This document shows, piece by piece, positions 11,497-26,041 of a DNA stretch of 27,175 nt; the first letter of the stretch is position 1; each line of letters opens with the position of its first letter. The notes under the pieces are model-generated. The model worked only from the letters and a program-made list of their open reading frames with translations, did not search any database and was not told the origin of the DNA. A program made the position numbers and the translations under genes. This stretch comes from a virus. The stretch spans positions 1 to 27,175 of IMG/VR virus record IMGVR_UViG_3300033149_006339; one strand, 5' to 3'.

Positions 11497-13032
11497 TTAA
11501 ATTTCAAACAAAGCATAAGGATTAAAATCTTCTTTTGAAATAACCGAATCCTTTTCTTTGTCTATTCTTAGATCAACCCCATGATAGAAAGTCATAAAAA
11601 ACGCATCTCCCCTGTCAGGACTTCTCCCTAATTTTGTTTTAAGCTTAGGCTTATGGAGAATCTGTCTCTTACCCGAAAGATTGTTCCTGTACATAAAAGC
11701 TAAAATATCCTTCCTTAACTCATCGCCATATATAGTCCCCCCTCTTAAAAACCATTCTCTGGCCCTAAAACAACATTCAGCCCTTTTATTTAAAAACGTT
11801 TCCTCGTCACTGGGTTTTTCAGCCCAGTTCATAGCCGTAGCATTCATCCTCTGGTCAAGTAGTACAAGATCAGACTTAACATTCGCGCCTATTCCGAAAT
11901 TATCAATAACAATATCATAGGGATCAACATTATGTTCTCTGACAATATCTAATGTTCTGGCAGCAATTTCCTTGGAATTAGATACTTGTTCTATGGCGAC
12001 AACCCTAGCAAAGTAGTTATCGCGCAAAACCCAAACCGTCAGATTATCCCCTTCTCCCGAGGGATCAATCCCTAAAACCTTTCTTCCGGGACTGAATTTT
12101 ATAGGATCAACACTTATATGAATATCTTTTTCTGTCAGAAGCGGTATCCATCCCTGATCATCCATCTGCTCAGAAGCAGGAAATCCCCCGAGAACCCTGA
12201 TCCTGTATTCATCAGAATCTCTTCCCCATTTTTTCAACATTCTCTCTATATATCCCTCTTCAACTATCGGAGACTCCTCGGAATTGAACGACAAACAGGT
12301 CCAGTATTCTCTGTCTGAATGATGACTATCGTAAAAATACCCGGTATTCCTCGTTCCATTTCCTATCAGGATAACCAGAGTGTTGGGACCGGTTAGGGAC
12401 CCCTCGGCAGACCTGAAAATTTCATCGGGCACGGCGCTTGATTCATCAACGACTAGAAATACAAAATCGCCATGTAACCCCGCAATCGCCTCAGGATTTT
12501 CCTTTCTTGCTGTTCTGGCTCTGGCAAACCAAGTATCGGGCCTTTCCTTAACCCTTATATATCCCGCCTGATAATCAAACAAATCCAATTCCTTAACTTC
12601 ATCAGGCATTCTATCCAGCCACTTACTAACCTCTTTCCATAAAACATCGTGAATCTGTTCCGAGGTAGGAGCCGTAGCTCCTATCTGAGCATCGAGGTGA
12701 CAAAACAGATACCAGATAATCAACCAAGACAAGCAGCTCGATTTACCTGTGCCATGGCCTGATACCACACTTATCTTATTTTTCCCGGTCCTTATCGCAT
12801 CCTCAACGGCCAGCAGAAGCAACCACTGCTGCCACGTCACATGTTCTCCAAGCCTAAACTTTTCAAAGTGCCATTCCTTTATCTTGTCATAATCCCTGCT
12901 TTCTATATATCCTTCAACCTCAGCCTTATATTCTTCTTTAACCGGCTGAGGACTCAAGCCCCACATTTTCTCTATAAAGTAAATGGGACTTTTCTGAAAC
13001 TTTTTCATTATTATCTTGTCTATTATTTCCAT
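11497..13032 (-). CDS. terL: Terminase large subunit
   Basis: This is a 511-residue ATP-driven DNA-packaging motor and headful/cos nuclease. Walker A is SGHGTGKS (91-98), Walker B FLVVDES with D196/E197, and the coupling motif is ILIGNGT (221-227). The C-terminal RNase H-like nuclease carries acidic residues at GIDPSGEGD (D323), VIDNFGIG (D377) and SPDRGDAF (D473, D476). N-terminal residues (SPIYFIEKMWGL) match the usual start of the family. It overlaps the TerS gene by 95 nt in another frame, so the start at 13032 or an in-frame ATG at 13008 is likely, not far downstream. Confidence 0.95.
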   Translation of the reverse strand: MEIIDKIIMKKFQKSPIYFIEKMWGLSPQPVKEEYKAEVEGYIESRDYDKIKEWHFEKFRLGEHVTWQQWLLLLAVEDAIRTGKNKISVVSGHGTGKSSCLSWLIIWYLFCHLDAQIGATAPTSEQIHDVLWKEVSKWLDRMPDEVKELDLFDYQAGYIRVKERPDTWFARARTARKENPEAIAGLHGDFVFLVVDESSAVPDEIFRSAEGSLTGPNTLVILIGNGTRNTGYFYDSHHSDREYWTCLSFNSEESPIVEEGYIERMLKKWGRDSDEYRIRVLGGFPASEQMDDQGWIPLLTEKDIHISVDPIKFSPGRKVLGIDPSGEGDNLTVWVLRDNYFARVVAIEQVSNSKEIAARTLDIVREHNVDPYDIVIDNFGIGANVKSDLVLLDQRMNATAMNWAEKPSDEETFLNKRAECCFRAREWFLRGGTIYGDELRKDILAFMYRNNLSGKRQILHKPKLKTKLGRSPDRGDAFFMTFYHGVDLRIDKEKDSVISKEDFNPYALFEI

Positions 13033-13522: not shown

Positions 13523-13547
13523 AACCCCAAGGATGAACCTTGAGGTT
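13523..13547 (-). terminator. Rho-independent terminator before terS
   Basis: On the minus strand AACCTCAAGG pairs with CCTTGGGGTT (10 bp including one G-U), with a 5-nt loop, followed by TTTGTT. It would end leftward transcription coming from upstream just before the terS leader, so packaging genes would need readthrough or their own promoter. A candidate promoter on the minus strand is TAGATT-17-TATAAT at 13640-13612. Confidence 0.7.
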
Positions 13548-13567: not shown

Positions 13568-13754
13568 TAGAAACCATCAACTTTTCGGGCAGATTATTAA
13601 ACACAAATAAAATTATATTTTTTTCACTACGCAGAATCTATACGATGGCCAGCGATCGCATAATTCTCCGTAATGAAAAATCAATAAAGTTAATTAATCA
13701 ACAAAGTTGATCAATCAACAATTTTATTAACAATCTACCTATGGATGGTTTCTA
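13568..13754. repeat. Nested inverted-repeat region (possible pac site or origin)
   Basis: Three nested arm pairs share one centre. The outer pair is 13568-13578 with 13744-13754 (11 bp perfect). The middle pair is 13591-13600 with 13727-13736 (9 of 10). The inner pair is 13620-13637 with 13663-13680 (16 of 18). The inner loop contains GCGATCGC. It lies between TerS and the nuclease gene, with no ORF. This is the usual place of a packaging initiation site, but a replication origin or structured RNA is equally possible. Confidence 0.6.
13689..13719 (+). repeat. Two-unit palindrome array
   Basis: GTTAATTAATCAAC (13689-13702) and GTTGATCAATCAAC (13706-13719) are separated by AAA (17-bp period). 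They lie inside the nested inverted-repeat region, in the right half. The first unit has one mismatched arm position. Confidence 0.7.
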
Positions 13755-13755
13755 C

Positions 13756-13785
13756 GTATCGCTAGTACACCAACCCTAACGATAC
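13756..13785 (+). other. Stem-loop with ACACCAA loop
   Basis: GTATCG (13756-13761) pairs with CGATAC (13780-13785). After one mismatch, TAG pairs with CTA, leaving the 10-nt loop TACACCAACC. The loop resembles the ATACACCARA loops at 15438, 17794, 19066 and 19441, but shifted by one position. The transcribed strand is not known here. Confidence 0.5.
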
Positions 13786-13811
13786 ATCATACCTATTATG
13801 AAGTATATATC

Positions 13812-13851
13812 AAAAAATAAAAAAAGTCAAGGTTTTATTGTGGATAACCTT
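13812..13851 (-). terminator. Terminator at end of VRR-NUC gene
   Basis: On the minus strand AAGGTT (13851-13846) pairs with AACCTT (13834-13829) and is followed by GAC and a T-rich tract. The stem overlaps the stop codon (13829-13827). Its loop contains TTATCCACAA, an exact DnaA-box match, probably by chance. Confidence 0.65.
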
Positions 13852-14165
13852 ATATTATTCCACCATTTTTTAAATTCTGAAAAATCTTTAGCCACAAACG
13901 ACAATCCACCGAAGTATTCTATATTCTTTAAAAAACCTTTTTGCTCTAAAGAAAGCCTGTCTTTTCCTATTTTAACCTCTATCGCTACTAACCGGCCATA
14001 AGGTGGAATTATTGCCAGTATATCTGAAACACCTTTTTTAGAGGCCACCCTCCATCTATTTATACGGGAATCAAACAAACCAGTAGATGAAGCCCGCCAC
14101 GCATAGCCACCTGTCTTGTAAATATAATTGATTATATCATTGGTTAATTCATTTGCTTTTGACAG
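13827..14165 (-). CDS. VRR-NUC-type endonuclease
   Basis: This is a predicted structure-specific or PD-(D/E)XK-like nuclease of the VRR-NUC family. The frame has GGYAWRASSTGLFDSR..., then KKGVSDILAIIP (the G-V-SDI motif with catalytic D), LVAIEVKIGKDRLSLEQKGFL (E-x-K catalytic pair followed by LS-x-EQ), and a C-terminal GGLSFVAKDF. All core elements are present. No in-frame ATG precedes the conserved YAWR segment. A TTG at 14078 would delete it, so a non-ATG start is inferred; I place it at CTG 14165, 1-2 nt from the predicted transcription start. A Holliday-junction or repair nuclease role is inferred from the family. It stands alone between two terminators/promoters. Confidence 0.75.
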   Translation of the reverse strand: MSKANELTNDIINYIYKTGGYAWRASSTGLFDSRINRWRVASKKGVSDILAIIPPYGRLVAIEVKIGKDRLSLEQKGFLKNIEYFGGLSFVAKDFSEFKKWWNNIRLSTIKP

Positions 14166-14173
14166 ATATAGTT

Positions 14174-14202
14174 AGGATACAATAATTTAGAATTTTAGTC
14201 AA
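14174..14202 (-). promoter_or_regulatory. Promoter for the VRR-NUC gene
   Basis: Minus-strand TTGACT (14202-14197), 17 nt, TATCCT (14179-14174). The predicted start (about 14167) falls 1-2 nt before the inferred CTG start, so the message would be leaderless. Confidence 0.55.
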
Positions 14203-14253
14203 GTTGATAAATCACGAGCATGGATGGGGATTTTTCCCTAGAAATAAAGGAAA

Positions 14254-14309
14254 GGGAGTTGGGGATTGGGAGTTGGGGATTGGGAGTTGGGAGTTGGGAG
14301 TTGGGGATT
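14254..14309 (+). repeat. G-rich heptamer tandem array (8 units)
   Basis: Eight contiguous 7-bp units follow the order GGGAGTT, GGGGATT, GGGAGTT, GGGGATT, then three GGGAGTT, then GGGGATT. Every unit has three or four Gs, so G-quadruplex formation is possible on this strand. It lies in the divergent non-coding region between the leftward nuclease gene and the rightward early genes. A role in replication initiation or control is possible; heptamer arrays of this kind also occur as neutral repeats in other bacteria. Confidence 0.85.
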
Positions 14310-14371
14310 GAAAATTATTGGTCTTGACTTTTTCCTAAGAGCAGGTTCTAATACAGATAGCTGATTCTTAT

Positions 14372-14395
14372 ATATATGTATATATATACATATAT
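14372..14395. repeat. 24-bp AT-only-type palindrome
   Basis: A perfect 24-bp palindrome centred at 14383/14384, AT except for one G and one C at 14378 and 14389. It lies 60 nt from the heptamer array. Easy melting or cruciform extrusion suits an unwinding element. The rest of 14310-14578 holds no ORF that I support, only AT-rich sequence and a 10-nt A-run near 14435. Confidence 0.7.
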
Positions 14396-14578
14396 TTTTT
14401 TTTCAATATTAGGGTAACATACAAGTTAACGTTAAAAAAAAAACATTTAGGGTATACTCCTCTCTACGATAGGGCTAACTGATTTTGTATAAATATAGTA
14501 AAAATGAGGGTTTTTGCTATTTACAAAATTAAAAGATGTTGTGTAATTTATTATCTGAGGGGGTGTTGATAACTACTA

Positions 14579-14619
14579 TTGACAAATTTTGGTAGAGAGT
14601 TACCATATAGATATGGTAA
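14579..14619 (+). promoter_or_regulatory. Early promoter with overlapping palindromic operator
   Basis: TTGACA (14579-14584), 16 nt, TACCAT (14601-14606). A 20-bp palindrome (arms 14600-14608 and 14611-14619, TTACCATAT/ATATGGTAA) covers the -10 region and the ATG at 14613. The transcript would begin at or next to the ATG, giving a leaderless message. The protein encoded is a ribbon-helix-helix type, so auto-repression is likely. Confidence 0.65.
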
Positions 14620-15273: not shown

Positions 15274-15301
15274 TTGACAGATTTTCTGGGTTTGATATAC
15301 T
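15274..15301 (+). promoter_or_regulatory. Promoter for structured RNA/early transcript
   Basis: TTGACA (15274-15279), 16 nt, TATACT (15296-15301). The predicted start at A15308 coincides with the first paired base of the RNA described next. Confidence 0.75.
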
Positions 15302-15307
15302 CCCTTT

Positions 15308-15479
15308 AGAGAGTTTAAAAAAAAAGGAATTAAAAAATATAAAATATAGAGGCCAACAAGTAAGAAAAACATCTGGGCTTTAATCTATATTTTATATTCC
15401 GGCCACTAAACACTGGCCACTAAACAAGAGTTTAAACACACACCAAAGTTTAGATTCTTGTATCTCTTTTAAACTCTCT
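15308..15479 (+). ncRNA. Structured RNA closed by a 13-bp end helix
   Basis: P1 pairs 15308-15320 with 15467-15479 (13 bp, perfect). P2 pairs 15336-15350 with 15384-15398 (15 bp, perfect, 33-nt loop). P3 pairs 15424-15437 with 15448-15461 (14 bp including G-U pairs) around the 10-nt loop ACACACCAAA. A 12-nt direct repeat (GGCCACTAAACA, 15401 and 15415) lies between P2 and P3. G-U pairs appear only on this strand, so the RNA is the plus-strand one. The 5' end equals the predicted transcription start. It may be a discrete ncRNA or the first part of the leader of the gene at 15587. After it (15480-15557) only small hairpins are seen. Confidence 0.7.
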
Positions 15480-15586
15480 CCGGGAGTCGCAATTGAATAA
15501 ATTGCCCTTCTCTTTTAGGGTTTTCTCGGAGGTCAACGTAGTAAAACCTTTAAATTACCAGTTAACCGCTGGCTGGTTCATTAAAA

Positions 15587-15895
15587 ATGGCAATTAAAAT
15601 TGTATCTACTAAAACATTTAATAAACCATATTGGAATAAAAACGATATTGAAAACTGGTTGATTAAAAATGGAGTTAAAAATAATGATTATGTATCTATA
15701 GATGGAGTTAATAATAGAGTTTATGATGTTCTTAAAATTCAAGAAGTTAAAGAATATATCCCTGCTATACCTAAAATTAAATTGAAACTAAAAAGAATAG
15801 TAAATAAATATGGTTGTCAATATCAAGTTTATTATAAGATATTAAAAACTTGGAACGATGAGGTTGAAAATAGTTTTTATTTGAGAATATATTGA
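15587..15895 (+). CDS. Unrecognised 102-aa early protein
   Basis: The family is not recognised. It is lysine/asparagine-rich and looks mixed alpha/beta. Residues 1-35 (IKIVSTKTFNKPYWNKNDIENWLIKNGVKN) and 40-60 (SIDGVNNRVYDVLKIQEVKEY) show a strand-turn-helix order. The C-terminal part (PKIKLKLKRIVNKYGCQYQVYYKIL) is basic. No Shine-Dalgarno sequence precedes the ATG; a boxA-like GGTTCATTAAAAA runs up to the start codon. The leader segment 15558-15576 is complementary to 15911-15928 behind the stop. A nucleic-acid-binding small early protein is a guess. Confidence 0.6.
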   Translation: MAIKIVSTKTFNKPYWNKNDIENWLIKNGVKNNDYVSIDGVNNRVYDVLKIQEVKEYIPAIPKIKLKLKRIVNKYGCQYQVYYKILKTWNDEVENSFYLRIY

Positions 15896-15900
15896 AACTA

Positions 15901-15932
15901 TATCCCGGCTCCACCAGCGGGGGGCTGGGATA
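15901..15932 (+). other. Hairpin whose loop can pair with the gene's own leader
   Basis: TATCCCGGC (15901-15909) pairs with GCTGGGATA (15924-15932, one G-U). The loop contains CCACCAGCGG (15911-15920), complementary to CCGCTGG-c-TGG (15566-15576) just before the start of the 102-aa gene. No T-run follows. Confidence 0.55.
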
Positions 15933-16623
15933 CTCTCCACCTTAACAACTGATTATAAACTCTATTATAGCGGTTCTTATTTATGACTAAAAAAGCAATG
16001 ATTAAATATATTTCATCTTTTGAAATCTACCCTACAATGAATAGCTGGAATAGAAAATATGGCTATTCCTTCAATGTTAAAATTTATAATTTACCATTAA
16101 AAGATGAAGAAAAAAATAAATTATATGAAATCATAGGAGATGAAAATTTATCAGAGTGTTTTTATACAGATATTTATGATTTAATTGAAGTATGGAGATA
16201 TGCGAATATTAAATTGTTTGGGGTGCATAGAGATGAAAATATTAAAAATATAGAATATCCTAATTTTACAGCTTTTCTTAACGGCAGAAGTTCAGGACAT
16301 TTAGTTTTAGGTAAATGGAACGGCTACAATTATTGTGGTTCTGGCTGGTGTTTCACAGAGGAGGAATTAAAAGATATGTCTAAAGAAGATGTAAGATATA
16401 TTTACAAAGTATTAAGAGAATTTGAAAAATTATATAAAAGCATTATCAAATTATGTAGATATTATGCCAACCGCAAAATAGAAGAAAAGACAATAGAGGA
16501 AGTAAAAACAATAAAATATAAAACCTTTACTGATTAAATTATTAACTCAATCGTGGGTTAATTACAACATCCGCTAACACCGCAATTGATAGAGTTTATA
16601 ATTAGCTTTTAGGGTGGAGAGTA
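15931..16623 (+). other. Gene-bracketing RNA complementarity (about 39 bp) around the 184-aa gene
   Basis: Upstream segments 15931-15945, 15949-15967 and 15970-15974 are complementary, in the right nested order, to 16609-16623, 16587-16605 and 16579-16583. They give 15, 19 and 5 base pairs, separated by a symmetric 3 by 3 internal loop and a small inner loop. The three non-Watson-Crick positions are all G-U on the plus strand. The helix ends 8 nt before ATG 15983. The 16538-16608 stretch also holds a local hairpin (ATTAAC/GTTAAT). Confidence 0.75.
15983..16537 (+). CDS. Unrecognised 184-aa early protein
   Basis: The family is not recognised. The protein is rich in aromatic residues and appears globular, alpha/beta. 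Conspicuous motifs are FLNGRSSGHLVLGKWNGYNYCGSGW (about 95-118; NGRSSGHLVL is typical of small phage proteins of unknown role) and a C-terminal helical, lysine-rich part (about 125-184). There are three cysteines but no clear metal site. Its start has no Shine-Dalgarno; GGTTCTTATTT directly precedes ATG. The gene is enclosed by the long complementary arms described separately, so its translation or mRNA stability is likely structure-controlled. Confidence 0.65.
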   Translation: MTKKAMIKYISSFEIYPTMNSWNRKYGYSFNVKIYNLPLKDEEKNKLYEIIGDENLSECFYTDIYDLIEVWRYANIKLFGVHRDENIKNIEYPNFTAFLNGRSSGHLVLGKWNGYNYCGSGWCFTEEELKDMSKEDVRYIYKVLREFEKLYKSIIKLCRYYANRKIEEKTIEEVKTIKYKTFTD

Positions 16624-16632
16624 GATAATAAC

Positions 16633-16654
16633 AAAGAACATCGGCGGGTTCTTT
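16633..16654 (+). other. Leader hairpin with ATCGGCGG loop
   Basis: AAAGAAC (16633-16639) pairs with GTTCTTT (16648-16654), loop ATCGGCGG. The loop can pair (8 bp, one bulged G) with CCGCCGGAT in the loop/stem of the terminator at 17206-17240. The hairpin ends 9 nt before ATG 16664, and its 3' arm is part of a boxA-like GTTCTTTAAAAAC. Confidence 0.65.
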
Positions 16655-16663
16655 AAAAACAAT

Positions 16664-17161
16664 ATGCAATTTAATTTCGCAACTTTAAGGCAATACTTGC
16701 AAGATTTATTTTTTAATCCTAACAACAACATCAAAAGACACGCTAAAGGATTATTAAAAGAGATAGATAAAGACAATAAACTAAAAGATGAGATTGACAC
16801 CTTGCTTGTGGTAAAAGATGATAAAGAAGTTTTAATTGATATATGGAGGAGGAAGGAGCGTTTATACTGGACAGAACAAGCTGAACAGGCAGCAAAAGAT
16901 ATTTTTAATTCAATGATAGATAAATATGACAAAGATTATACAGAAAGGCAAAAAGATGATTATTTTAATGATTACGCAATGGAATATATAGAAGGATATT
17001 TTACCTATTATCACACAGCTTGGGAGTATTTAATGGTTGCATCTCCGGAATATGAAGGCGAAGTGTTTGATACTACTTCACCGGTAGATAACCAAATCAC
17101 ACAGCTGGCAATTACAACCTTCACAAACCAAGTAAGAGATTATTATGACAGAATAAAATAA
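16664..17161 (+). CDS. Unrecognised 165-aa acidic helical protein
   Basis: The family is not recognised. It is strongly helical and acidic with repeated polar helices (residues 25-60, KRHAKGLLKEIDKDNKLKDEIDTL) and aromatic-rich parts around 95-125 (YFNDYAMEYIEGYFTYYHTAWEYL). There is no signal peptide or membrane helix. Acidic, aromatic small early proteins of phages often mimic DNA or bind host proteins, but nothing specific shows this. The leader hairpin and the downstream terminator carry complementary loops, so expression of this gene and of the one behind it may be coupled. Confidence 0.65.
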   Translation: MQFNFATLRQYLQDLFFNPNNNIKRHAKGLLKEIDKDNKLKDEIDTLLVVKDDKEVLIDIWRRKERLYWTEQAEQAAKDIFNSMIDKYDKDYTERQKDDYFNDYAMEYIEGYFTYYHTAWEYLMVASPEYEGEVFDTTSPVDNQITQLAITTFTNQVRDYYDRIK

Positions 17162-17205
17162 TTTATATTATTCTCTTCTTATCTCGTGGGTATAACCCAC
17201 TACAT

Positions 17206-17240
17206 AAAAAGACACTATGACCGCCGGATAGTGTCTTTTT
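17206..17240 (+). terminator. Strong rho-independent terminator
   Basis: AAAAAGACACTAT (17206-17218) and ATAGTGTCTTTTT (17228-17240) form a 13-bp perfect stem with loop GACCGCCGG and a U-run in its 3' arm, and the sequence after it is AT-rich. A further small hairpin (GTGGGT/ACCCAC, 17186-17200) precedes it. It lies between the 165-aa gene and the 144-aa gene, which has no clear own promoter, so readthrough or antitermination is needed. Confidence 0.85.
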
Positions 17241-17275
17241 ATTATTTTATTAACTTTTACAGCTCTTTAACTTAA

Positions 17276-17710
17276 ATGTCCGGTAGCGATGATTGGTTTA
17301 AATTTATGACTACTACTAATGGCTTTACTAAAATAAACAATACCCAGCGCAAGGCGTTTGCTCAACTTATAGAAAATAAAACAGGTAAAAAAAGAGATGA
17401 TGATGATTTTGAAATATTAAAAGAAAAAGAAATGAAAAAAGAATTAGAGCGTTTAAGGAAAAAATACAAAAAAGAAATTGAAATTTATTTAAAAGGGAAA
17501 CAAGCAGAAAGAAAATTAGAAAAGGTCGGTTTATATACAAGTGGTGATGAAATTGAATTAGGTTGGAGATTAAAAGAAAAAATTGAAGCAAAGATTAAAT
17601 CAAAAAACAACCATTATAAAGAAAAAGCTATCAGGGATATTTGGTCGGTTCAAACATTGGAGGAAGCTAAAAAAATTGTAGATGATTACTTCTCCCTGTT
17701 CATAGATTAA
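17276..17710 (+). CDS. Unrecognised 144-aa lysine-rich coiled-coil protein
   Basis: The family is not recognised. Residues 1-30 include SGSDDWFKFMTTTNGFTKIN; residues 40-85 are a charged helix/coiled coil (KRDDDDFEILKEKEMKKELERLRKKYKK). The rest is helical with a C-terminal IDDYFS-like aromatic end (IVDDYFSLFID). There are no cysteines, membrane segments or enzyme motifs. The ATG lies inside the boxA-like/complementary arm 17261-17284, and no Shine-Dalgarno precedes it. It probably needs readthrough of the terminator 17206-17240. Confidence 0.6.
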   Translation: MSGSDDWFKFMTTTNGFTKINNTQRKAFAQLIENKTGKKRDDDDFEILKEKEMKKELERLRKKYKKEIEIYLKGKQAERKLEKVGLYTSGDEIELGWRLKEKIEAKIKSKNNHYKEKAIRDIWSVQTLEEAKKIVDDYFSLFID

Positions 17711-17716
17711 ACCATT

Positions 17717-17766
17717 GTAGATTTATTTACTTTTGTAGATTTATTTACTTTTGTAGATTTATTTAC
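17717..17766 (+). repeat. Three-unit palindrome array (GTAGATTTATTTAC)
   Basis: Three identical units, GTAGATTTATTTAC, at 17717, 17735 and 17753, separated by TTTT (18-bp period). It belongs to the same GTnnATnnATnnAC family as those near portal and TerS, in reverse orientation (A-run on the other side). It follows the 144-aa gene stop by 6 nt. Confidence 0.8.
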
Positions 17767-17781
17767 TTTTATTTAAATTAT

Positions 17782-17815
17782 CTATTGGCTGTTATACACC
17801 AAAAACAGCTAATAG
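17782..17815 (+). ncRNA. Stem-loop with ATACACCAAA loop
   Basis: CTATTGGCTGTT (17782-17793) pairs with AACAGCTAATAG (17804-17815), 12 bp with one G-U, around the 10-nt loop ATACACCAAA. It is one of five such stem-loops in the window. The stem is unrelated in sequence to the others. Confidence 0.7.
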
Positions 17816-17878
17816 GTTGGCTAATTAACTCAATCAATCACTCGCCGGACATTTAAGTTAGGGAGTTATAATTTGGTT

Positions 17879-17909
17879 GTAGGTTTATTTACTTTGTAGG
17901 TTTATCTAC
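17879..17909 (+). repeat. Two-unit palindrome array
   Basis: GTAGGTTTATTTAC (17879-17892) and GTAGGTTTATCTAC (17896-17909), separated by TTT (17-bp period), 11 nt before the ATG at 17920. It is the second unit group of the family in this intergenic stretch. Confidence 0.7.
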
Positions 17910-17919
17910 TTTCATAATT

Positions 17920-18075
17920 ATGGAATATCAATATCAGCAAAAAAACTTTAATGAAACCTTGATTAAAAAGCAACATAAAAAAGATTGCCGGCTGTTTATT
18001 TTGGGAATAGCCGGCGTGGTCGTTTATTACATTATAATGGCGCTTCTGTTTTGTCGGGAAGCGTGCGTATTATGA
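17920..18075 (+). CDS. Small single-pass membrane protein (51 aa)
   Basis: This is a 51-residue frame (ATG 17920 to TGA 18075). Residues 1-23 are polar (QYQQKNFNETLIKKQHKKD), residues about 25-44 are a hydrophobic segment (LFILGIAGVVVYYIIMALLF), and the end carries two cysteines (LLFCREACVL). It reads as a small membrane protein, N-terminus in the cytoplasm. The stop overlaps the ATG of the next gene (ATGA), which supports it as real. The role is unknown; small membrane proteins in this position can be lysis-timing or exclusion factors. Confidence 0.55.
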   Translation: MEYQYQQKNFNETLIKKQHKKDCRLFILGIAGVVVYYIIMALLFCREACVL

Positions 18076-18308
18076 GGGTTGGAGAAAAAGTAAAAGTTAT
18101 CAACACTCATATTAAAAACAAGCCCCGCGCTTTTGCCGGAGTGTTGGAAAAAATCGGGCGGTTTAGGTCGGGGTTTGTTTATGGTCGTGTTTACAATTCT
18201 GATACAGGGGAAAGATATTACTTTGCTATTACTGATGTCTATCCCCTGAATAATAATGAAAAACCGCAGGAAAAACAACAAACAGCGCAGGGTAATATGC
18301 TTTTTTAA
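18072..18308 (+). CDS. Small beta-barrel/KOW-like protein with clamp-motif-like end
   Basis: This is a 78-residue protein from ATG 18072 (ATGA overlap with the previous gene); a longer start at 17985 lies inside that gene and is rejected. Residues 1-60 look like a small beta-barrel (EKVKVINTHIKN...FAGVLEKIGRFRSGFVYGRVYN...YYFAITDVYPL), with the EKVKVI...GVLEKIG pattern of SH3/KOW-like folds. The tail is a flexible linker ending in QGNMLF at the very C-terminus. That resembles sliding-clamp-binding peptides (Q-x-x-[LM]-[LF]-F-like), and a clamp-like gene lies two genes on. This link is inference. Confidence 0.6.
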   Translation: MRVGEKVKVINTHIKNKPRAFAGVLEKIGRFRSGFVYGRVYNSDTGERYYFAITDVYPLNNNEKPQEKQQTAQGNMLF

Positions 18309-18411
18309 AGGAAAGGCAAAAGATTTAATGCCGTTTCTTAAAGTTTTGGCTCGTGAATATGAAAACGGGCTGGTCGGTTATATTAATGGCAAGTATATTT
18401 ATCTTAACTGA
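18256..18411 (+). CDS. Small basic protein (51 aa)
   Basis: This is a frame from ATG 18256 (overlapping the previous gene by 53 nt) to TGA 18411; an internal ATG at 18328 is preceded by AGGAAAGG, one of the better Shine-Dalgarno matches, and would give 27 residues. The longer product has an RR/KK-rich start then GKAKDLMPFLKVLAREYENGLVGYING. The end (about 25-51) looks like a short alpha-beta piece (FLKVLAREY, GLVGYINGKYIYL). No family is recognised. Either start may be used. Confidence 0.45.
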   Translation: MKNRRKNNKQRRVICFFKGKAKDLMPFLKVLAREYENGLVGYINGKYIYLN

Positions 18412-18429
18412 TAGATATATTTATAAATT

Positions 18430-19041
18430 ATGCTTTACAATAAATTTAATTTAGAAGTTAGTAAGTTTGCAGGAGATAGTTATGGTTCTAAACCAGAGTT
18501 AGGGGGAGTGTTCTTTACTTCTCGGGCGACAGCGGCAAGCGATGGTTATAAATTGATAGAAGTTAGTGTTCCAAGCGAGTTGAAGCCGGAGGAATACCCG
18601 AGTGTTAACGGAAAGAAAGCGATGAGGGGTTGCCGCCCGTTTATAGTGCCGGCGCCGGCGTTGAAGGAAATTAAGATAAATAATGGTAGTTCGTTGCCAA
18701 TATTGAATTGTATAGGTGTTGGTCATTTAGATAAGGAAAAGGTGGAGTTTTTAAATACCAACCTTGATGAGAGTGAAATTAAAACTATTAAAAAAATAGA
18801 AGCAAAGTATCCGGATTATCAGCAGTTGTTTAATCAAGAAAAGCCAGTATTGGAAATATCGGTTAATGCTAAATACTTAAAAGAAATAATGGACTTTATG
18901 AGTAAATTCGTTGATACGGGGTCAAAAGAAGTAAAAATAAAACTTTATGGTTCAAATAAGCCGATTATGTTTACAGCGGAAAATAACAGCACTCGCCAGA
19001 AAGTTCGGGCTTTGTTGATGCCGATTACTACAACTAAATAA
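18430..19041 (+). CDS. Short DNA sliding clamp-like protein
   Basis: This is a 203-residue protein, whose C-terminal part (about residues 130-200) resembles the last domain of bacterial beta clamps (DnaN): PVLEISVNAKYLKEIMDFMSKF, KEVKIKLYGSNKPIMFTAENN, then the near-terminal RALLMPI that corresponds to the Y-x-LMPM-x-L end. The N-terminal part contains RATAASDGYKLIEVSVP, like the a-TDG-y-rL strand of clamps. At 203 residues it is much shorter than DnaN (about 370), suggesting two rather than three domains. It may be a phage clamp or a clamp paralog interfering with the host clamp. No Shine-Dalgarno sequence is seen. It lies just before a large structured RNA. Confidence 0.65.
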   Translation: MLYNKFNLEVSKFAGDSYGSKPELGGVFFTSRATAASDGYKLIEVSVPSELKPEEYPSVNGKKAMRGCRPFIVPAPALKEIKINNGSSLPILNCIGVGHLDKEKVEFLNTNLDESEIKTIKKIEAKYPDYQQLFNQEKPVLEISVNAKYLKEIMDFMSKFVDTGSKEVKIKLYGSNKPIMFTAENNSTRQKVRALLMPITTTK

Positions 19042-19050
19042 GGCGCTTGA

Positions 19051-19460
19051 TGTTGCCGGTTATACATACACCAGAGTATAGTCGGCAACAATGAGGCGCT
19101 TTGTAAATTTATTTACCTTAACATCAATAATTATTAAGACAAACAGAGAATGGTTAAGTTCGGTTGTCGGTTAAACTCACCGCGCCATTAAAACTTAATG
19201 CTGGCTGTTTGCTTGAAATTATTGATTGCGCCTCAACCTTGACATCAGCTTGTTTAAGCCGGTAATGCCCTTTCCGTTAATAAGGGCTGGCGTATCGGAA
19301 ATAGACGATTGGGCATAGGGCAACCGCAGAGCTTGGGACTATGAGGGAAACCTCCTCTCAAGCGGCAACTCTATTGTGATTTACCCGGTATCACATAAAT
19401 AGAACCGGGAGCGTTGCAGAGGGGCGCAATGAGTTTAAATATACACCAAAATTTAAACTC
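19051..19460 (+). ncRNA. About 410-nt structured RNA with pseudoknot
   Basis: Elements in order are as follows. Stem-loop 19051-19090 (15 bp, two G-U; loop ATACACCAGA). Palindrome unit GTAAATTTATTTAC (19103-19116). A 22-bp helix 19123-19146 with 19205-19226 (two bulged As). A closing helix 19226-19234 with 19421-19429 (one G-U). Hairpin GCTTGGGA/TCTCAAGC (19331-19338 with 19356-19363) with an inner GAGG-GAAA-CCTC tetraloop. An H-type pseudoknot: 19375-19380 with 19390-19395, and 19384-19389 with 19404-19409. Hairpin 19431-19460 (10 bp, loop ATACACCAAA). All wobble pairs fit plus-strand RNA. There is no ORF I can support in 19042-19542. A standalone RNA or a large leader of the next genes; no match to a named class is known to me. 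Confidence 0.7.
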
Positions 19461-19542
19461 GTTAAAAATCTGTCTTTAAAATTTGAATATCAAAAGCGTC
19501 CGGCTTAAAGCGGTGAGGCGTTTTTTGGTATTCGCTTTGTTT

Positions 19543-19749
19543 ATGAAAAAAAATAAAAAAACATTTTATCATAACATTTGCTCTATAGAGCATTGTGGAA
19601 AAATAGCTCGCTTTAGAGAATTCAGAATATATGAAATTTGGTCGTTAGATGAAGAAGGAGATGTTAAAAAAATGATTTATAAAGAAAATGAATGTGATGA
19701 GGATTTGGCATTGTGCGAGGAACACGCTCGTGAAGCGGGCTGGATATAA
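19543..19749 (+). CDS. Small zinc-ribbon-like protein
   Basis: This is a 68-residue protein from ATG 19543; the longer frame from TTG 19483 starts next to the RNA's last hairpin and adds a basic stretch of little sense. Pattern: a lysine-rich start, then CSIEHCGKIARF (C-x4-C), an intermediate strand region, and ECDEDLALCEEHAREAG (C-x2-H). The C-x4-C...C-x2-H arrangement is a zinc-binding motif seen in small phage and bacterial proteins. Its role is unknown. It ends just before the palindrome that precedes the helicase gene. Confidence 0.65.
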   Translation: MKKNKKTFYHNICSIEHCGKIARFREFRIYEIWSLDEEGDVKKMIYKENECDEDLALCEEHAREAGWI

Positions 19750-19750
19750 A

Positions 19751-19764
19751 GTTGATCAATCAAC
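19751..19764 (+). repeat. Single GTTGATCAATCAAC palindrome before helicase start
   Basis: A perfect copy of the unit seen near portal and TerS, preceded by AAA, ending 4 nt before the ATG at 19769. If it forms a hairpin in the mRNA it lies where a ribosome binding site would be; if it binds a protein it may be an operator. Confidence 0.75.
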
Positions 19765-19768
19765 AATC

Positions 19769-21391
19769 ATGATACTAACCAAAGAGGATAATTTAATAGG
19801 AATTAAATTTGATTATAACTCCAGACTGGTAAATTTAGTTCGGAGTTTGTCTTATAGGCAGTATAATCCGGAAAAAAAGATGTGGACTATTCCGTTGGCT
19901 GGCTCTGAAGCATCTCTTCGGAGGTTGCTTAGGGCGGGATTTAAAATGGACAGCGAATTGGAAGATGCGTTAATACAAGAAAAAGAATTGAACGATGAGA
20001 TTAAAAAATTGATTAGCCGGTCTTCAGCAGAATTTCCTACCTCTCTTCCTCTGCTTAACTATCAGAGGGTGGGGGCGAAGTTTTTGGATAAGATTGGCAA
20101 TGGTTTGCTTGGCGATAGTATGGGGCTGGGAAAAACTATTCAGGCGTTGGCGATATTGGAAAAAAACAAGCCGGAAAAAGTTTTGATTATATGTCCGGCT
20201 ATATTAAAACATCAATGGAAATCAGAAATTGAGAAATTCGGTTTGGGTTGGTCGGTGGTTATTATTGAAGGAAATATCAGAGAGAGGAGAGAATTGTGGA
20301 AAAAAGAAGCTATGGTTTATGTGGCTAACTACGAATTATTGTTAAGGGATTTTGAAATGATGAATATGAGAAATTGGGATTATATTGTGGCTGACGAAGC
20401 TCATAGGATATCTAACCCGTTTGCTAAGCAGAGTAAGGCAATCAAAAGATTAACAAGCAAAAAAAGACTGGCTTTGACTGGTTCGCCTATAAGCAACAGG
20501 GCTGATGAATTGTGGAATATATTAGATTTTTTAAATCCCGGATGTGTCGGAAATTACTTTGAGTTTGTAAACAGATATTGTATTAAAAATCAATGGGGGG
20601 GAATTTTTGCTTATCAAAATTTAGAGGAGCTCAAGGAAAAAATAAAAAGATATATGATTAGGAGAACCAAGGAACAGGTTTTAAAAGAGTTGCCGGATAA
20701 AATAATTACCGAAATGCCGTTCAGGTTAAGCGACGAGGAAAGGAGTTTATATTCCTACATAAAAGAGGAAATTTTATATGAAATTAAAAAATCGGATATA
20801 AGCAAGATAGAAAATCCGATGAGTATTCAGCAGACATTGGTTAAGTTATTACGGCTTCAACAGGTGGTTAATTCAATGGAATTGGTTGGGGAAAGGCAAA
20901 AATCAAGCAAATTGGAGCTTTTAAAGGAATTATTGGAAGAGGGAATAAACAATGGGCAGAAAGCATTGATATTTACTAAGTTTGAAAAGATGACACCTAT
21001 TTTAGCCAGAGAGTTAAAGGAATACAATCCGGTTATTATTAGCGGAAAAATAAATGAAAAAATAAGACAGCAATATGTAAAAGATTTTAATGAAAAAGAA
21101 GATAATAAAATTCTCATAAGCACAAGTGCCGGTAATTACGGATTGAATTTGCAGAGAGCCAACCTCGTATTCCATTATGACCAAGAGTTTTCATTGGCGA
21201 AAATGGAACAAAGAACCGGCAGGGCTTATCGGATTGGACAAAAAAATAAGGTTTTTGAATATCATCTTTTGGCTAAGGGAACGGTGGATTATCACTTCAG
21301 AAGGATTGTCAGGAGAAAAGCCGAACTTTCTGGCACGGTTCTCGGCGATACGCCGATAACAATGGCAGAAGTTCAGCAATTATTACTATGA
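19769..21391 (+). CDS. SNF2-family (SMARCAL1-like) helicase/translocase
   Basis: This is a 540-residue protein from ATG 19769; a longer frame from 19688 overlaps the preceding gene and lacks sense, so the later start is chosen. The N-terminal part (1-60: GIKFDYNSRLVNLVRSL-x-x-RQYNPEKKMWTIPL) matches HARP-like modules of SMARCAL1-type proteins. Motif I is GDSMGLGKT (115-123), motif II DEAH (199-202), motif III LTGSP (226-230), motif V STSAGNYGLNLQ (441-452) and motif VI QRTGRAYRIGQ (471-481). It is an ATP-dependent DNA translocase, probably for annealing or fork remodelling during phage replication. Its end overlaps the recombinase start (ATGA). Confidence 0.9.
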   Translation: MILTKEDNLIGIKFDYNSRLVNLVRSLSYRQYNPEKKMWTIPLAGSEASLRRLLRAGFKMDSELEDALIQEKELNDEIKKLISRSSAEFPTSLPLLNYQRVGAKFLDKIGNGLLGDSMGLGKTIQALAILEKNKPEKVLIICPAILKHQWKSEIEKFGLGWSVVIIEGNIRERRELWKKEAMVYVANYELLLRDFEMMNMRNWDYIVADEAHRISNPFAKQSKAIKRLTSKKRLALTGSPISNRADELWNILDFLNPGCVGNYFEFVNRYCIKNQWGGIFAYQNLEELKEKIKRYMIRRTKEQVLKELPDKIITEMPFRLSDEERSLYSYIKEEILYEIKKSDISKIENPMSIQQTLVKLLRLQQVVNSMELVGERQKSSKLELLKELLEEGINNGQKALIFTKFEKMTPILARELKEYNPVIISGKINEKIRQQYVKDFNEKEDNKILISTSAGNYGLNLQRANLVFHYDQEFSLAKMEQRTGRAYRIGQKNKVFEYHLLAKGTVDYHFRRIVRRKAELSGTVLGDTPITMAEVQQLLL

Positions 21392-21954
21392 AAGCCCCCA
21401 AGATAAAAATTAAATATTTAGATGCTGAACAGATTAGAGAAATTATAAGGGGAATACCCGCCACTGAATCGGGTTTGATGTATAAAACCCTGATTGTTGT
21501 TTTATTTACTACAGGATTAAGAATTAGTGAAGCGCTTAATTTAAAAATTAAAGATTTAAAACTTGATTCTAAGATAACTCAAGAGCTTGCTGTTGTGGGA
21601 AAGGGCGGATATACAAGAACGGTATACTTTAGTCCGGATACATTAAAAATGATAAAGAAATGGCTTAGTGTAAGAAAAGGAAAAAAATACAATAAACCAG
21701 ATAAGAGGGACAGGGTTTTTCCTGTCAGTGTTAGGTCTGTTCAAAAACAGATTAAAAAATGGGCTGACTGGGCCGGATTTGAAGCTACCCCTCATACTTT
21801 TAGGCATTCTTTTGCGGTTCACACCTTGTCAAAATTGGGAAATTTAAGATTTACTCAGGAATTTTTAGGGCATAAGAGTATTCTTAATACTCAAATCTAT
21901 ACTCAAATAACCAATAAACACTTACGAAAAGCTCATGAAGAGATTTTCACTTAA
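21388..21954 (+). CDS. Minimal tyrosine recombinase (catalytic domain only)
   Basis: This is a 188-residue protein with the whole catalytic set: R45 (TTGLRISEAL), K72 (VGKGGYTR), H136/R139 (HTFRH), H162 (LGHKS), and the nucleophile Y171 (TQIYTQ). The usual N-terminal SAM-like core-binding domain (about 80-100 residues) is missing, so it is much shorter than XerC/XerD. It may be an invertase/resolvase type, a dimer resolution enzyme, or an integrase that relies on partners. It is translationally coupled to the helicase. No attachment site can be identified. Confidence 0.8.
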   Translation: MKAPKIKIKYLDAEQIREIIRGIPATESGLMYKTLIVVLFTTGLRISEALNLKIKDLKLDSKITQELAVVGKGGYTRTVYFSPDTLKMIKKWLSVRKGKKYNKPDKRDRVFPVSVRSVQKQIKKWADWAGFEATPHTFRHSFAVHTLSKLGNLRFTQEFLGHKSILNTQIYTQITNKHLRKAHEEIFT

Positions 21955-22173: not shown

Positions 22174-23353
22174 TTTTTTCAAATTTACGGACCAATTCTA
22201 TATATTTATCTTTCATTTTCCAGCGATCGCCATAGGGTCCGACACCTTTGGCTCTTTCTGCTACTTCAAGAGCAACCAATTCCTCTAATCTATATCTGAC
22301 CGTAGTGGTCGGCCGGTCTATTTTAGTGGCTAATCCGGTAGTAGTTAGTTCATTGTATTTTGCCAGTTCTTGAATTATAAGTCGCTTAGATGACGGTATT
22401 GAGTCAAGGGCTATTTTGTAAAGAATATTATGGTCTTCTGGCTGAAGTTCCATTTTGCCGGTTTCGTTGAAATTAACAACAGAAAGCGCTCTGGCCATGG
22501 TTTGTAGGGCGGCCGCCATTCTGGTTGGCATCTCCGGCGGGTAAACCTCTGTTATTTCCTGTTGGGGGCTTCTCCAGTTTCTTTCCACTTCGGATCTTAC
22601 TCTTGTTGAAAATTCAGCCAGAGATATCAGGTCTTTTTTTAATGTTTCGGGAATCTTGACTTTTTCCTTGGGTATTTCCGCGTTTTCTATATATTCCTTG
22701 GTTAAATCAGCCAGCCATCCTCTTTTTTCATCAAGTTCGCCGCTTTCTTGATTTTCCATGCTTTTGTTCGCCGCGGCTTTGGCTTCGGGTTGAATGAAAT
22801 TATAAAACAAAAATCTTTCGCCCATTGAAACATAATCCTTTTTCTTACTATGGATAGCATAGGTAGAGCCGGCAATTACCGTCACCTTGCCTGCCCACTC
22901 TTGTTTTTTGCCCGTTCCGAATTGTTTTATATATCTTCCATCGTAAATTTCTCTCATTTGAGCCATTAAAACAGATTTTGTATCTTTATTCTCTGATAAA
23001 ATTGAAGTTAAATCTTTAAATGTAATAATGCCGTTTTGTTCCTGATCGGTTCCTTTGGAAAGGTTGTGAAGTAGAGAAGCGCTTTCGCCGCCCTTGCTTA
23101 TTCCGGATAAAAATGTATTGGCGGTTAGGGTGGAAAGAGGATGAACATATTTGCATTTAGACAAAGCATTTATTATTTCGCTTTTTCCCCCAGCCGAAGG
23201 AGCCACGATAATTAGCCATATCGGATCAGATTTTAAAAGATGAGAAACATACAAGGAAACCAAGACCTTGATAATATAAGGGTCCTCCAAGAGATATACA
23301 CTTCCAAAAGCTTCTCTAAGTTTTTGAAGAGTAATTTTGTTTTTTTCTTCCAT
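22076..23353 (-). CDS. P-loop ATPase with C-terminal winged helix (replicative helicase-like)
   Basis: This is a 425-residue protein. Walker A is APSAGGKS (51-58); a Walker B-like strand is NGIITFKDL (107-115). Residues 120-200 include an AAA-like core with MAQMREIYDGRY and FGTGKKQEWAGKVTVIAGSTYAI; R in MGERFLFYNF may be the sensor/arginine finger. The C-terminal region (about 316-372) is a winged helix, TGLATKIDRPTTTVRYRLEELV, followed by an acidic low-complexity tail. This organisation fits ATPases found next to CHC2 primase domains in phages and integrated elements. It sits 4 nt downstream of such a gene, so helicase or helicase-loader function is inferred. Confidence 0.75.
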   Translation of the reverse strand: MEEKNKITLQKLREAFGSVYLLEDPYIIKVLVSLYVSHLLKSDPIWLIIVAPSAGGKSEIINALSKCKYVHPLSTLTANTFLSGISKGGESASLLHNLSKGTDQEQNGIITFKDLTSILSENKDTKSVLMAQMREIYDGRYIKQFGTGKKQEWAGKVTVIAGSTYAIHSKKKDYVSMGERFLFYNFIQPEAKAAANKSMENQESGELDEKRGWLADLTKEYIENAEIPKEKVKIPETLKKDLISLAEFSTRVRSEVERNWRSPQQEITEVYPPEMPTRMAAALQTMARALSVVNFNETGKMELQPEDHNILYKIALDSIPSSKRLIIQELAKYNELTTTGLATKIDRPTTTVRYRLEELVALEVAERAKGVGPYGDRWKMKDKYIELVRKFEKIKKESDLLDEENAEESQNISESDEVSQASSFF

Positions 23354-25535: not shown

Positions 25536-25547
25536 TAAATTTAATTC

Positions 25548-25754
25548 ATGGGTCGATTTAATTCATTAATAAACAATAAACTTATTATGCAATATATATT
25601 TCAAGAAATTACCCAGAATCCGAATTCAGTGGATGCGCCGGTAGTTCCAAGCGAAGATCAGAACGATAATTCCTCAGAAGAAAATCAAGAGTCGACACAG
25701 GAAGAAACCCCGGCAGAAGAATCAACAGAAACCGAAACTGTATCTACTGAATAA
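25548..25754 (+). CDS. Short acidic low-complexity protein
   Basis: This is a 68-residue frame; an internal ATG at 25587 is an alternative start. After a short start, residues 20-68 are an acidic stretch rich in E, S, T and N (SEDQNDNSSEENQESTQEETPAEE). It has no globular pattern and lies 12 nt after the nuclease gene. Acidic tails of this kind can mimic DNA or bind basic partners. The role is unknown; confidence that it is translated is moderate. Confidence 0.5.
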   Translation: MGRFNSLINNKLIMQYIFQEITQNPNSVDAPVVPSEDQNDNSSEENQESTQEETPAEESTETETVSTE

Positions 25755-25762
25755 TTTAGTTC

Positions 25763-25974
25763 TTTTCAATGCCCCCGACCGGTATTCTGGATCTGAAGGG
25801 AATTATCCCTGTCACGGCTATCCTTAAAGCCGTAATCAGATCTGGAATATACGAGTCTGAATAGGGTATCAGTTTGTCTGTAGAGGACGAACACTGGATT
25901 TAAACCAGTCGCCCTTAAACCAACATAAAACAACCAAATCCTTTTATTGCCCTATTCAGAGGGGGCATTGAAAA
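25763..25974 (+). ncRNA. 212-nt multibranched structured RNA
   Basis: P1 pairs 25763-25776 with 25961-25974 (14 bp, perfect). Arm A: 25784-25796 with 25836-25848 (13 bp, two G-U), carrying two small hairpins (AGGGA/TCCCT at 25797-25810; ACGGCT/AGCCGT at 25814-25833). Arm B: 25856-25866 with 25950-25960 (11 bp, abutting P1), carrying hairpins 25872-25878 with 25886-25892 (one G-U) and ACTGG/CCAGT (25893-25897 with 25905-25909), then about 40 nt unpaired. All wobbles fit the plus strand. No ORF covers it. Unknown class. Confidence 0.75.
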
Positions 25975-26008
25975 CTAATTTTGAGAAAGCAATTTATTTT
26001 CTTAAGAA

Positions 26009-26038
26009 GGTCGTAAAGAATTTATAATTTAATTTAAA
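26009..26038 (+). promoter_or_regulatory. Repeated upstream element GGTCRTAAARAATTTATAATTTAA
   Basis: A near-identical copy occurs at 26304-26327 and a shorter one at 26990-27006 (which overlaps the end of the 97-aa gene). Each precedes a gene start by 2 to 15 nt. The TATAAT within the first two could be a -10 box, but no TTGACA-like -35 lies at the right distance. It may be a shared promoter or translation signal. Confidence 0.4.
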
Positions 26039-26041
26039 TCT

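Follow-up and report, generated by a model that had tools for sequence, protein, structure and literature searches.

Known systems of RNA pairing

Pairing between the two untranslated regions of a bacterial mRNA is found in icaR of Staphylococcus aureus and in hok, where long-range pairs join the 3' UTR to the 5' UTR close to the start of translation, and the icaR pairing is cleaved by RNase III. Only a few individual cases of such 5'-3' closing, with short pairing, are known among bacterial mRNAs. Duplexes or hairpins within one transcript are also formed by rRNA processing stems and by the RNase III sites of the T7 early region, while kissing of antisense RNAs is used in plasmid control by CopA/CopT and the pT181-type attenuators. 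Large structured RNAs are encoded by phages as well, as in the ornate GOLLD and ROOL RNAs which are held by kissing loops (PMC12286853), and a structured RNA in early phage transcripts is known from HK022 putRNA (PMC9378689).

The window analysed here is a virus record of 27,175 bases from a tailed phage, with 35% G+C. It carries a terminase gene (11497-13032, - strand), an SNF2 helicase gene (19688-21391, +) and an integrase gene of the tyrosine recombinase type (21388-21954, +), and no tRNA genes were found in it. A rightward operon is preceded by a promoter-like TTGACA-16-TATACT at 15274..15301 (+; identified by pattern only, with 11 of 12 matches) and opens with a structured leader at 15299..15586 (+), which folds with z = -8.3 on the + strand and -4.3 on the - strand. 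Two genes of this operon, which encode proteins of 184 aa (15983..16537, +) and 144 aa (17276..17710, +; no known family), are each bracketed by long complementary arms. By eye, most genes in the window have no clear Shine-Dalgarno sequence and their starts are preceded by A+T-rich leaders, for example at 15587, 15983, 16664 and 17276.

The predicted 3'-5' UTR pairing near a translation start resembles the fold-back of icaR and hok. In contrast to these mRNAs, the phage has much longer helices, of about 34 and about 24 bp, and one of them occurs at each of two neighbouring genes; moreover, a Shine-Dalgarno sequence is not seen and neither product is a small toxin of the hok type. With the rRNA stems and the T7 RNase III sites the locus would share duplexes within one transcript that release separate pieces, but the T7 sites are local hairpins in contrast to the long-range helices observed here, and the stems of rRNA operons bracket rRNA where the phage helices bracket mRNA. 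Loop-loop complementarity and an intrinsic terminator-like hairpin downstream in the late leader recall CopA/CopT and pT181, except that the putative interaction would set a single late loop against four early ones, whose stems are mostly unlike. The structures differ from GOLLD and ROOL in that they surround protein genes, lack neighbouring tRNA genes in the window and have no Rfam match; a search of Rfam, including GOLLD, ROOL and OLE, returned chance-level matches only for any family. HK022 putRNA is likewise a structured early phage RNA, a likeness compared through Rfam only.

Predicted helix around the 184-aa gene

The arms of the first helix are located at 15931..15967 and 16587..16623 (both +), which agrees with the long complementary arms that the initial annotation placed around this gene. 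Near the gene no inverted repeat is longer, and the arms also come first in the inverted-repeat list for the window. RNA duplex prediction gave segments of 15, 19 and 5 bp separated by 3x3 and 2x3 internal loops, at -55.6 kcal/mol for the sense duplex vs -50.1 kcal/mol for the antisense duplex. Among stems spanning 200-1500 nt, this stem was the strongest in the window with a score of 68, compared with shuffled maxima of 38.5 ± 3.5 and 39.7 ± 3.2. None of the ten other phage pieces that were scanned identically exceeded its own shuffles by as much as this window. Furthermore, the gaps flanking the gene pair with z = -8.0 (0 of 200 shuffles).

When the transcript 15302-18430 was folded as a whole, the predicted ensemble gave both main segments a pair probability of at least 0.8 at nearly every pair, and about 34 pairs are firm. 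The outer segment GCGGT at 15970..15974 (+), with its partner ACCGC at 16579-16583, is confined to the isolated duplex; its probability in the full transcript is 0 and it pairs elsewhere, so that only the segments of 15 and 19 bp stand of the three that had been described. The internal loops had also been called symmetric, which is true of the 3x3 loop but not of the 2x3 loop. Similarly, the statement that every non-Watson-Crick position is a G-U holds for the three such pairs within the helix (15942/16612, 15951/16603 and 15966/16588), but the 3x3 loop adds one C-U and one A-C mismatch. The start codon is covered only partly in the predicted transcript, and the helix would join both ends of the mRNA beside it, as had been proposed.

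A strong hairpin with loop ACCAGCGG (15901..15932, +; -20.6 kcal/mol) is located directly before the 5' arm. We also noticed that a segment of gene 1, 15711-15727, can pair with 15952-15968 of the 5' arm (-20.7 kcal/mol, 16 of 17 nt); this fold might compete until the 3' arm is synthesised.

Predicted helix around the 144-aa gene

The 144-aa gene, which lies in the same operon, is enclosed by the second-strongest stem of the window (score 54), a stem that the initial annotation did not mention. The 5' arm of this stem (17257..17284, +) contains the ATG start codon of the gene and its 3' arm lies at 17844..17871 (+). This helix has a length of about 24 bp, its sense and antisense duplexes are predicted at -49.0 vs -43.5 kcal/mol, and the gaps flanking the gene pair with z = -5.0 against shuffles. 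In the partition function of the 15302-18430 transcript, the probability of both helices is close to 1 along most of their extent and the 144-aa start codon is essentially always paired. The arms of this helix and those of the first have unrelated sequences.

Each of the top two stems thus brackets exactly one gene of one operon, and both exceed the shuffles made. Elsewhere, gaps that are not neighbours pair with z of at most -2.5, and one further neighbouring pair of gaps, which is A+T-rich and holds repeats, reached -2.9. Bracketing of gene 1 is weak but suggestive (z = -2.9, 2 of 200 shuffles) and that of gene 3 is not significant (z = -1.0), apart from a 6-nt loop complementarity between the hairpin at 16633..16654 (+, loop ATCGGCGG) and the terminator-like hairpin at 17204..17242 (+, loop GACCGCCGG) which lies between genes 3 and 4.

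The 3' arm of the second helix sits between two tracts of tandem repeats, TTGTAGATTTATTTACTT (about 3 copies, 17715-17770) and TTGTAGGTTTATCTACT (about 2 copies, 17877-17912), both of which are possible iterons.

Hairpins with shared and complementary loops

Four hairpins on the + strand carry a nearly identical 10-nt loop, A[T/C]ACACCA[A/G]A. They are located at 15424..15461 (loop ACACACCAAA), 17780..17817 (loop ATACACCAAA), 19051..19090 (loop ATACACCAGA) and 19428..19463 (loop ATACACCAAA). Their stems of 13-15 bp are perfect if G-U pairs are allowed; those at 15424 and 19428 are partly alike and the others are unrelated. Four of the eleven ACACCA sequences in the window sit in the loops of such 13-15 bp hairpins, and stems of 12 or more are found at 0.13% of window positions.

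On the - strand, a late (leftward) leader spans 13826 to 13460. It is framed by a promoter-like TTGACT-17-TATACT at 13802..13830 (-; 10 of 12 matches, again a pattern match only) and by a terminator-like hairpin at its end (13523..13547, -). The first hairpin of this leader (13754..13787, -), just after the promoter-like site, has a loop, GGTTGGTGTA, which is complementary to the shared ACACCAA loops of the early hairpins over 7-8 nt. A second late hairpin (13638..13663, -) has the loop CGCTGGCC, which is complementary over 6 nt to ACCAGCGG, the loop of the early hairpin at 15901-15932. When the late loops were shuffled, both matches together had p = 0.00125. Complementary loops could also result from inverted copies of a single hairpin family, and a kissing function is therefore only putative. 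The hairpin at 13754 had been considered as a fifth + strand ACACCA hairpin and was dropped, as its wobble pairs make the - strand the likely RNA.

Bias towards the transcribed strand

Non-Watson-Crick positions in both arm pairs comprise seven G-U, two A-C and one C-U when read on the + strand. For the arms alone, the ratio of G-U to A-C (7:2) is modest (p about 0.09). The four early hairpins contain seven G-U and one A-C, and the oppositely placed late hairpin, if read on the + strand, contains three A-C, one other mismatch and no G-U. Arms and hairpins taken together have 17 G-U vs 3 A-C on the transcribed strand (binomial p about 0.001). Of 16 non-coding gaps, 14 also fold better relative to shuffles on the transcribed strand (p about 0.002 by sign test), a comparison from which the gap 14080-14588 between divergent genes was left out. 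As an example, the late leader folds with z = -11.4 on the - strand vs -6.5 on the + strand.

The wobble bias and the folding bias both point to selection on the transcribed RNA. Together with the second bracketed gene in the operon, they favour the view in the initial annotation that the arms were selected as RNA rather than as DNA ends. DNA-level origins are still possible, given the A-C mismatches and the modest ratio of G-U to A-C in the arms (7:2).

Proposed function and alternative explanations

The arms, the second wrapped gene and the matching hairpins suggest that the virus uses RNA folding to control these genes. Our preferred explanation, to which we give a little less than an even chance, is that the fold-back 5'-3' helices limit translation to the nascent mRNA, serve RNase III processing, or both. 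In the rightward transcript, the arms would pair the 5' with the 3' untranslated region of the 184-aa gene, and the 144-aa gene would have its own helix; 5'-3' UTR pairing is thus predicted for two genes. Since such a helix can close only after the RNA polymerase has passed the gene, the nascent mRNA would be translated first. The finished copy would then be folded shut, beside the start codon of the 184-aa gene and over that of the 144-aa gene. A closed helix of more than 20 bp would also be a candidate substrate for RNase III, for which a duplex of about 20 bp or more is expected; the 15 + 19 bp and about 24 bp predicted here reach this length, and cutting would free the gene as a separate short message.

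It is possible, although we consider it rather unlikely, that the helices are instead parts of a larger RNA-RNA control system or scaffold in which structured early and late leaders are joined by loop-loop kissing. Given the terminator-like hairpin at the end of the late leader, the early RNA could switch late transcription in the manner of plasmid-attenuator antisense RNAs. This would account for the concentration of ACACCA in hairpin loops (4 of 11, against 0.13% of positions with stems of at least 12), the late-early loop matches over 8 and 6 nt with their low shuffle p of 0.00125, the promoter-like and terminator-like sites that frame the late leader, and the strong folding of both leaders (z = -8.3 and -11.4). 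However, complementary loops would also arise from function-free inverted copies of one hairpin family, no Rfam family is matched, and the kissing loops have no direct link to the gene-bracketing arms. A combination, where the early shared-loop hairpins kiss the late-leader loops and switch the terminator while the 5'-3' helices close fully transcribed early genes, appears unlikely. Alternatively, the genes might have been brought in by small mobile DNA elements, with the arms as their terminal inverted repeats. In favour of this, each arm pair encloses a single gene, the outer ends of the first pair carry TA dinucleotides as the only candidate for a target-site duplication, and the tyrosine recombinase gene (21388-21954) is located about 4 to 5 kb downstream. 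We regard such an origin as quite improbable: the two pairs are unrelated to each other, no transposase lies inside, the second pair extends into coding sequence, and the G-U and strand biases favour RNA. Moreover, the first pair (15931-15967/16587-16623) matches only itself in the window, with no further copies.

The structures could serve transcription antitermination, either as rRNA-like leader-spacer helices with boxA or as put-like leaders, in keeping with two sites that closely precede genes, a mismatch-free boxA-like match at 16648 and the GCTCTTTAAC at 17262, and with the terminator-like hairpin between genes 3 and 4. Yet boxA-like motifs are not enriched in the window (42 found vs 43.9 expected) and the GCGGTTCTT of the arm is itself a weak match, so the boxA overlap that had been noted for the arm did not hold up and we find antitermination very improbable. 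Chance complementarity could be expected to some extent in an A+T-rich genome (35% G+C) with many short inverted repeats, but shuffled maxima reach only about 39 ± 3 where the two stems score 68 and 54, and the flanking gaps pair with z of -8 and -5, which leaves it barely credible.

If the preferred explanation of fold-back helices is true, a phage operon in which two genes have a long helix each, among hairpins that share a loop on changed stems, would make it possible to test clearly whether phages use RNA folding to time gene expression. It would also provide a defined loop as a query for other phages.

Relatives of the locus

Other phages encode distant relatives of the 184-aa protein, at about 30-36% identity, which have the motifs YPT[ML]NSWN and NGRSxGxLVL in common with it. 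No comparable arms were observed at the loci of these relatives and the arms therefore belong to this operon rather than to the gene family. In viral and genome collections, no close relatives of the 184-aa, 165-aa and SNF2 genes were found; the terminase has one relative there, on a 5-kb fragment (L004) that is without this region. The collections searched yielded no homologous operon. The arms are known from one genome, and a DNA similarity search against phages and plasmids returned nothing useful. The structure model of the 184-aa protein is modest (pLDDT 70.5) and had no PDB match at E 0.001 or better.

Host hints and other structured gaps

Two GCGATCGC palindromes (13652-13659 and 22223-22230), of which 0.01 are expected, hint at a cyanobacterial host, as does a heptamer array of GGGAGTT/GGGGATT at 14254-14310. 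The hint is weak because the first palindrome lies inside a late-leader hairpin. In addition, two non-coding gaps on the + strand were observed to fold strongly. The gap 19042-19482 (441 nt, -145.7 kcal/mol, z = -7.0 on +) is framed by two of the ACACCA-loop hairpins and is possibly an unknown structured RNA, and the gap 25536-26041 (506 nt) folds with z = -6.1 on the + strand and -3.2 on the - strand.
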